From positions 1 through 59,291 of the forward strand of contig NZ_JAUNLM010000009.1 of NCBI RefSeq assembly GCF_030532265.1: a DNA stretch of 59,291 nt. Reading direction: 5' to 3'. Position numbers and translations under genes: made by a program. Source of the stretch: Clostridium sp. (GTDB lineage: Bacteria; Bacillota; Clostridia; Clostridiales; Clostridiaceae). Every line of letters starts with the position of its first letter. The stretch's first letter is position 1. The notes beneath the pieces were generated by a model that searched no databases, was not told where the DNA came from, and saw only the letters and a list, made by a program, of their open reading frames with translations. Positions 35,492-37,458 of this stretch are shown here, in pieces.

Positions 35492-37291
35492 TTATTGTAA
35501 TATATTTATCATATAATCTTTAGTTCTATTAAAACTTTCATCATCTACTTCAACTATCATTCTAGTACCTGTTTCTACATATTCTTCTTCTAAAACTCTA
35601 CCACTTCTATGAAGTAACGATTGAATATCTCCTCTATTATAAGGTACTATATACTCTACTTTCTTTAATTTATATGGAAGTTTTTCTTCTATTTCTTCTA
35701 ATAAATTATCTAAATTTATTTCTTCTTTAGCTGAAACTTTTATAATGTGGTCATAATAAGAAATTTTTTCTTCTATATTAGCTATTTGTTCTTCTGTTGC
35801 TTTATCTATTTTATTTAAAACTAATATTGTATCTTTATCTATAGATCCAAGTTCTGACAACACTTCTTCAACAGCTTTTATTTGCTCTAAAGCATCATCA
35901 CTTGAAGCATCTACAACATGACATAAAAGATCTGAGTAAATAACTTCTTCTAAGGTTGACTTAAATGCTTCTACTAAATCATGAGGAAGCTTTCTTACAA
36001 ATCCTACTGTATCAGTTAAAGTTATAAGACCTTTATTTTTAAGTATAATTGCTCTAGTTGTTATATCTAAAGTAGCAAAAAGCATATCTGCTTCAAAAAC
36101 CTCTTCTTTATTTCTATTATCTTTTGATGCAGCTATTTTACATAGAGCATTTCTAAGTGTTGACTTACCTGCATTTGTATAACCAACTAAAGATACTTTA
36201 GGTATGCTTTCTTTATTTCTTTTCTCTCTTTGAACTTCTCTTGTTTTCTTTATTTTTTTAAGTTCTCTATTTAAGTCATATATAGTTTCTCTTATATGTC
36301 TTCTATCTGTTTCTAATTTCTTTTCTCCAGGTCCCCTAGTACCAATACCACCACCTGTTCTTGAAAGAACTGTACCAAGACCTTGAAGTCTTCCTAATCT
36401 GTATTTAAGCTGAGCAAGCTCTACTTGTATTTTAGCTTCTTTACTTTTTGCTCTTCTTGCAAATATTTCAAGTATTAATGTAGTTCTATCAATTACCTTA
36501 GCCCCAATTGCATTTTCAAGATTTCTAACTTGTGAACCTGATAATTCATCATCAAATATAATAACATTAGCTCTTTCTGTTTGTCTTAAATGAGCAATTT
36601 CAAGAACTTTTCCTCTACCTATAAAAAATGCTGGATCTATTTTATTTCTACCTTGATATACTTTTGTAAGAACTGGTATGTCACAAGCTTTAGTAAGTTC
36701 TGCTAATTCATCTAAGCTTTCTCTAGTATCTGATCCTACTAATATAGCTTTTTCTTCATCATTTTCTATAACATCATTTTCTTTTATAAGTTTTTCAACA
36801 TATCTTATTTTATCTAATATATCTATTCTCATTAACTCTTCAATGTTAAGATTATTTTTTTCTTCATATACTAAATCTTTATCTAATACCATTAAATTTG
36901 CTATTGAAAAATCAACAATTTCACCATTATTTATTCCAATTGCAACTATTGCATCTAATTTAAGCTTTATAAGAGCCGTTAAATCAAGTGCTGATAAATT
37001 GCTGTATCCATTTGGATGTGTGTGAATAACTCTAACTCCTGAAAGTCTTTTTTCATATATATCTAAAATAGGAAGTTCTACTGATGTTGAATCGCCTATT
37101 GCTACAGATGTAACTTTTCCTTTTCTATCAATAGCAACACTTACTTCTCTCTCTATTTTTGAAGAAACATTAGTAATTATATCTATAATTTCTACATTAC
37201 ATACTTCTTGTTTTTGAGTTTTTATATTATATAAACTGTCTAATTCTGAAAGAATAGAATTCCTTATTCCTTCTGTATTTCCATGTATCAT
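35492..37291 (-). CDS. hflX: GTPase HflX with extra N-terminal JAMM-like domain
   Basis: A 599-aa ribosome-associated GTPase, about 170 residues longer than the usual HflX of about 420. From about 180 on it is ordinary HflX: N-domain with GRGKVLEIA, the TRGPGEKKLE linker, and the GTPase domain with P-loop GYTNAGKST at 370-378, DTVGF at 427-431, NKID and SAKE. HflX splits stalled or hibernating ribosomes. The N-terminal part carries HTHPNGYSNLSALD at 90-103 (His90, His92, Ser100, Asp103) with Glu49 upstream. These are the complete JAMM/MPN+ metal-site residues, as in RadC or JAB proteases. The combined role is unknown. It is transcribed alone. Confidence 0.93.
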   Translation of the reverse strand: MIHGNTEGIRNSILSELDSLYNIKTQKQEVCNVEIIDIITNVSSKIEREVSVAIDRKGKVTSVAIGDSTSVELPILDIYEKRLSGVRVIHTHPNGYSNLSALDLTALIKLKLDAIVAIGINNGEIVDFSIANLMVLDKDLVYEEKNNLNIEELMRIDILDKIRYVEKLIKENDVIENDEEKAILVGSDTRESLDELAELTKACDIPVLTKVYQGRNKIDPAFFIGRGKVLEIAHLRQTERANVIIFDDELSGSQVRNLENAIGAKVIDRTTLILEIFARRAKSKEAKIQVELAQLKYRLGRLQGLGTVLSRTGGGIGTRGPGEKKLETDRRHIRETIYDLNRELKKIKKTREVQREKRNKESIPKVSLVGYTNAGKSTLRNALCKIAASKDNRNKEEVFEADMLFATLDITTRAIILKNKGLITLTDTVGFVRKLPHDLVEAFKSTLEEVIYSDLLCHVVDASSDDALEQIKAVEEVLSELGSIDKDTILVLNKIDKATEEQIANIEEKISYYDHIIKVSAKEEINLDNLLEEIEEKLPYKLKKVEYIVPYNRGDIQSLLHRSGRVLEEEYVETGTRMIVEVDDESFNRTKDYMINILQ

Positions 37292-37458
37292 TAAATCACC
37301 CTTTTTATTATCTATATAATTAATTTTGAATATAATTCTATACTAATAAATACTTATTGTAAACTAAATCAATTAAATTTGCACTTGATTTTTCTTCTAT
37401 AATAAAGTATTTTATTTATTAAGAAATTGATATTTAAAAATACTTGGAGGTTTTATTA

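Follow-up and report, generated by a model that had tools for sequence, protein, structure and literature searches.

A predicted JAMM/MPN+-like peptidase domain fused to the ribosome-splitting GTPase HflX in Clostridium and related bacteria

The stretch of DNA analysed here (the window) comprises 59,291 nucleotides of a Clostridium sp. contig (NZ_JAUNLM010000009.1). Its hflX gene encodes a protein of 599 amino acids in which a JAMM-type domain precedes an HflX GTPase core. The features of the gene, all on the reverse strand, are as follows, with the basis of each in parentheses.

35492..37291, reverse strand: hflX gene, 599 amino acids, JAMM domain and HflX core (translation of 35495-37291 and TIGR03156 match)
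36776..37291, reverse strand: N-terminal domain, residues 1-172 (AlphaFold2 model of residues 1-185)
36812..37216, reverse strand: JAMM/MPN-like fold, residues 26-160 (span of the structural matches PfJAMM1, AMSH/Sst2, RadC and Rpn11)
37145..37147, reverse strand: Glu49, predicted acid-base residue, opening the strand of residues 49-55 (conservation and modelled strand)
36983..37024, reverse strand: HTHPNGYSNLSALD, residues 90-103, predicted metal-site loop (conservation and spacing; roles from PMC300881)
36731..36844, reverse strand: helices and linker between the JAMM fold and the HflX core, residues 150-187 (modelled secondary structure)
35495..36730, reverse strand: HflX core, residues 188-599, with N-terminal, middle, GTPase and C-terminal regions (Pfam and TIGR03156)
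37296..37303, reverse strand: ribosome-binding-site-like AAGGGTGA upstream of the ATG (by eye)

An earlier reading made from the sequence alone had described a 599-residue protein with a full HflX core, and this description holds: the translation has 599 residues, and over residues 188-538 the NCBIfam model TIGR03156 (HflX) scored 462.4 bits (cut-off 216.75). The three HflX regions in Pfam are all present (PF13167, residues 191-278; PF16360, residues 280-358; and PF01926, residues 365-494). No other HflX was found in the source genome, in which 1 of 11 TIGR03156 matches lay above the cut-off (genome 92.7% complete). Its start codon is backed by a conserved N-terminus (G4 invariant and M1 in at least 90% of 52 rows) and, by eye, by the ribosome-binding-site-like element just 5' of the ATG. 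Ordinary HflX of the E. coli and B. subtilis type, about 420 amino acids long, has the same core but does not have the JAMM domain.

Residues 49 and 90-103 read E...HTHP-x6-SxxD, which fits the JAMM motif EXnHS/THX7SXXD exactly (PMC300881); E49, H90, T91, H92, S100, and D103 are all present. Glu49 precedes His90 by 41 residues; in AfJAMM, E22 precedes H67 by 45 (PMC300881). By analogy with the residue roles in that mechanism, His90, His92, and Asp103 are the predicted metal ligands, Ser100 the predicted transition-state stabiliser, and Glu49 the predicted acid-base residue.

The sequence-only reading had pointed out this HxHP-x6-SxxD pattern with its upstream glutamate and had asked whether close relatives keep it; the pattern can be read in the translation, and E49, H90, H92, P93, S100, and D103 were each identical in 104 of 104 rows of a first comparison set. 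This set includes some near-duplicate rows as well as L081, the locus of the window itself, and L074-L080, which are cut by a contig end or do not have the domain, were excluded from it beforehand. In a wider set of 171 rows, from which L081-L110 were excluded and in which the window was counted twice, the counts were 167 for E49, 161 for H90, 162 for H92, 166 for S100, and 165 for D103. All five residues were intact in 160 of these rows, 10 rows were changed, and L074 was cut by its contig end. The H-H-S-D spacing of 2, 8, and 3 was kept in 160/160 intact rows, while the E-to-H distance ranged from 33 to 44 and was mostly 41 or 43. In a ranking of 183 columns by conservation, the five catalytic residues are all in the top ten (E49 0.977, S100 0.971, D103 0.965, H92 0.947, and H90 0.942; 171 rows).

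The AlphaFold2 model of residues 1-185 had a predicted local distance difference test score (pLDDT) of 87.2 and a predicted template modelling score (pTM) of 0.83, with low confidence at residues 178-185 within the helical linker segment, and set the motif at JAMM positions. A VIA-align re-examination of Foldseek's 1000 best PDB chains gave a match list made up mostly of JAMM/MPN entries, which places the modelled domain in the JAMM fold. The matches included PfJAMM1, AMSH/Sst2, RadC, and Rpn11, and alignments to Pyrococcus furiosus JAMM1 (5ld9) and AfJAMM (1r5x, 1oi0) had 12-16% identity. The comparison with JAB/MPN, AMSH, and RadC structures that had been proposed earlier thus came out in favour of a JAB/MPN-like model and not of another fold. 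The placement of the motif in the model, the dominance of JAMM/MPN entries, and the exact spacing in all intact rows leave an unrelated fold carrying the motif by chance or convergence very improbable, and a chance motif or artefact was also rejected on the conservation and the many carrier genomes. The N-terminal domain is almost certainly of JAMM type. The full-length model (pLDDT 79.3, pTM 0.58) was too uncertain for placing the domain on the core.

Searched alone, residues 1-183 had no match in Pfam, no match in a PDB sequence search at E values up to 10, and no accepted match in NCBIfam, in which the best hit, L-asparaginase 2 (E 0.014, 14 bits vs 506), was taken as chance. Less biased evidence came from the structural comparison and from three further searches. 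A 91-member profile searched against PDB chains returned the AMSH-like Sst2 first (E 0.0019) and AMSH-type chains as the first 12 of 20 rows, with RadC 2qlc at E 0.45. A Pfam scan of the 91 members found Prok-JAB in 55 (best 7.5e-5) and RadC in 40 (best 0.0017), the window's own member having neither match. A Prok-JAB search of 146 Clostridia genomes matched the HflX N-domains of four, G068, G130, G158, and G237, with E values between 3.6e-5 and 2.1e-4 and scores of 22.6-24.3 bits, below the cut-off of 25; in the source genome it matched RadC and not the window HflX. The PADLOC JAB model matched the window domain (E 0.00088) and L209 (E 0.0023) and had no match on L072.

In profile-profile alignments, the 91 members gave probabilities of 91.4% for RadC and 89.1% for Prok-JAB, compared with 0.2-0.6% for four HflX-core segments used as controls, and 0/100 column-shuffled decoys reached the real score of either family; a narrower 52-row profile gave 39.5% and 69.0%, respectively. 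But these values dropped to 2.3% (RadC) and 0.1% (Prok-JAB) after removal of the motif columns, and a profile of 9 changed-motif members gave 0.3% and 0.1%. The profile-profile tests are partly circular, in that the comparison rows were chosen by motif (9 Prok-JAB rows of 17 loci required the motif, and 30 RadC rows required HNHPxG), which the shuffled decoys leave unmended. To form the 91-member set, the 10 changed rows and L074 were removed first, followed by L182, L185, L202, and L203 for shortness or long inserts; its invariant columns are therefore conditional, and the PDB, Pfam, PHROGs, profile-profile, and decoy tests inherit this choice.

The kinship with the JAB (PF14464) and RadC (PF04002) families that the sequence-only reading had raised was upheld. 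The profile alignments are positive, but the window domain has no match at the gathering score of either model (best RadC E among the 91 members, 0.0017); Prok-JAB is the nearest Pfam family, and the window domain is a non-member by the Pfam rule. RadC has an HNHP loop and a helix-hairpin-helix part. The likeness to RadC stands in profile and structure, but the window protein has HTHP, no PF04002 match, and no helix-hairpin-helix match, and the source genome has a separate RadC; RadC proper was thus rejected. A weak Topo-V helix-hairpin-helix match occurred in 1 of 52 members (E 0.094). AMSH and Sst2 are structural matches too, but they are eukaryotic K63-ubiquitin enzymes with ubiquitin-binding insertions, and these bacteria are not known to have ubiquitin.

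Several other matches were taken as chance: CM_1, the best in the 52-member Pfam scan (E 6e-4, ahead of Prok-JAB at 0.0017) and present in 5/91 members (best 4.6e-4); DUF1846_C in 1/91 members (3.2e-4) and DUF3929 in some; phage-tail and unknown PHROGs in some members; a CARF model on L072 (0.015); and chloroplast ribosomal protein S19 in the PDB profile search (0.049).

The domain was found in 54 of 59 relatives, in 90 of 291 Clostridia genomes (about one third of those of the class that were examined), and in 72 of 398 genomes of the phylum. Among 80 of 93 named loci, L001-L074 carry the domain; they are mostly from Clostridium and also from Eubacterium multiforme, Inconstantimicrobium, Oceanirhabdus, Thermincola, Sporomusa, and metagenome-assembled genomes. 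L075-L080, from Kurthia, Bacillus, Chloroflexi, and others, have the core only. Fusobacterium, of another phylum, also carries the domain, with an intact motif in the one protein read. No phage record matched the window domain at E values up to 1e-3, and the two matching records of the plasmid collection were both from Fusobacterium, the one examined being a full HflX. This record (NZ_CP077186.1; L319:3001-4803), labelled a 219-kb plasmid of Fusobacterium animalis, has hflX with an intact JAMM domain next to a shikimate kinase gene, that is, housekeeping genes on a so-called plasmid.

The fusion is constant: the HflX core sequence was present in 170 of 170 frames checked in genomes with a retrieved locus, and no stand-alone copy of the domain was seen among them. 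HflX lay above the cut-off in 144 of 195 Clostridia genomes, where the best stop-to-stop frames had at least 580 amino acids in 60, 480-579 in 3, and the shorter, ordinary-type lengths (below 480) in 81. The domain was also matched in the class-wide search in 56 of the 60 genomes with long frames; the other four (G724 and G726-G728) were outside that match list and were first seen in the later HflX scan. Two loci (L305 and L306) have about 120 extra residues upstream of the HflX core with no match to the JAMM domain; those of L306 are acidic, and those of L305 are possibly just open frame ahead of the true start. Three genomes of group f60 (G175, G222, and G243) each have two adjacent HflX genes, both with frames below 480 amino acids.

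On a tree of 112 rows, of which 68 bear the domain and 44 have the core only, presence of the domain required 7 changes, compared with a shuffled mean of 35.0 and 0/500 shuffles as low; the tree was built by a quick method, its root is not fixed, and its starred branches force only 3 changes. The simplest reading of this tree, which it suggests and does not prove, is an old fusion with few origins and repeated loss.

We read the window HflX as a two-part protein, an ordinary HflX GTPase core with a JAMM/MPN+-like domain for which peptidase activity is predicted, at a probability of roughly 0.6; the domain itself is probably catalytic. The ten changed rows, all of distant members (L186-L188 of group f115; L189-L192 and L194 of f153; L193 of f159; and L197 of f33) weigh against this reading. 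They keep the domain fused, and these pseudo-JAMM lineages occupy at least 3 separate places in the tree (L188 together with L193, and L191 and L197 each apart from these), so catalysis is not required in every member, and retention of the domain without its metal site favours an additional binding role. In most f153 members, F and R replace H90 and H92; the L193 domain match also contains a stop codon. Such rows would be expected if the domain were a JAMM-fold docking module of MPN−-like type, which would attach to the ribosome or to a partner and modulate splitting, its metal being structural or left over, and a short N-terminal extension of mycobacterial HflX already alters the outcome of splitting (PMC12493154). 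A docking surface alone, however, is not expected to hold an acid-base glutamate and the SxxD serine as tightly as the column ranking above shows, and the window protein retains all five residues and is not of the MPN− type, in which the metal site is lost. We regard docking without catalysis as unlikely, though the most serious of the alternatives. A zinc sensor, in which HflX would be switched by zinc supply through the filling of the JAMM site, is a much slimmer prospect: the ligand set is compatible with one zinc and mycobacterial ribosomes are remodelled on zinc starvation (PMC12493154), yet Glu49 and Ser100, which are catalytic and not ligand residues in the published mechanism (PMC300881), are conserved like the ligands.

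Heat and antibiotic stress are conditions under which HflX splits ribosomes (PMC6310831); HflX-GTP binds the 70S ribosome, its helical domain extends to the peptidyl-transferase centre, and ND1 displaces H69 (PMC12493154). In the mechanism we propose, the JAMM/MPN+ domain (residues ~26-160), joined to the ribosome-splitting GTPase through a short helical linker, would bind one zinc through His90, His92, and Asp103 and, with Glu49 serving as the acid-base residue and Ser100 as the stabilising one, would cut peptide or isopeptide bonds. GTP-state HflX would dock at the 50S side when a ribosome is stalled or idle and would thereby bring the domain, which lies ahead of ND1, to the interface face of the 50S; the mycobacterial extension ahead of ND1 lies there, touching uL16 and H38 and reaching H69-71 (PMC12493154). 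In that position the domain may trim or free a protein or peptide tail carried by ribosomes in need of splitting. Since the JAMM site is complete, a zinc peptidase acting on such a tail is our best guess, although a ribosome-bound substrate is somewhat less than an even bet. More tentative still is the view of an old, widespread ribosome-rescue enzyme, a working JAMM protease that would be part of HflX in many Clostridia and in some Negativicutes and Fusobacteria and would cut one particular protein, tag, or nascent peptide during splitting.

ThiS/MoaD-type ubiquitin-like proteins often neighbour bacterial JAB domains (PMC1779556). PF02597 matched in 68 of 146 Clostridia genomes, some with JAMM-HflX (e.g., G221 and G094), and had no match in the source genome (92.7% complete) or in at least five other JAMM-HflX genomes (G022, G079, G103, G174, and G198). 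A ThiS/MoaD-like protein is therefore ruled out as the substrate in general, barring one that has diverged beyond the reach of the model. The window neighbours, which we take to be hpt, MocR, a nucleotidyltransferase, YigZ, yunB, and PBP1A, recur in most Clostridium loci. Among the distant loci (L063, L064, L066, L069, and L071-L074; flanks of at most 3 kb, L074 being a short contig), only L069 shares one of them, YigZ; the neighbours are thus almost unshared at distance and indicate no functional partner.

AfJAMM is a JAMM domain alone (PMC300881), whereas the window protein joins its domain to a ribosome-splitting GTPase. Mycobacterial HflX likewise has extra sequence ahead of ND1, but of 39-58 amino acids (PMC12493154), compared with a domain of about 180 residues here. 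A 2025 review, in the part available, mentions only an N-terminal extension in several Clostridium spp., and the available part of PMC12493154 names no domain in Clostridium HflX proteins. HflX has 0 occurrences in PMC1779556, and a JAMM-type domain on HflX is not described in the available parts of PMC10502375, PMC6310831, and PMC4342817. In the titles and abstract openings of the matches listed from the openly licensed PMC literature, no description of a JAMM-HflX fusion was found, which is not proof of absence.

A domain left blank by Pfam and NCBIfam is now identified, in the only HflX found in the source genome and in about one third of the Clostridia genomes examined (90/291) and beyond. 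JAMM domains include zinc enzymes of de-ubiquitination, and the fusion suggests that ribosome splitting in its carriers is accompanied by a second, probably proteolytic step. If this prediction is true, JAMM chemistry, known from de-ubiquitination, would be tied directly to the rescue or awakening of bacterial ribosomes.
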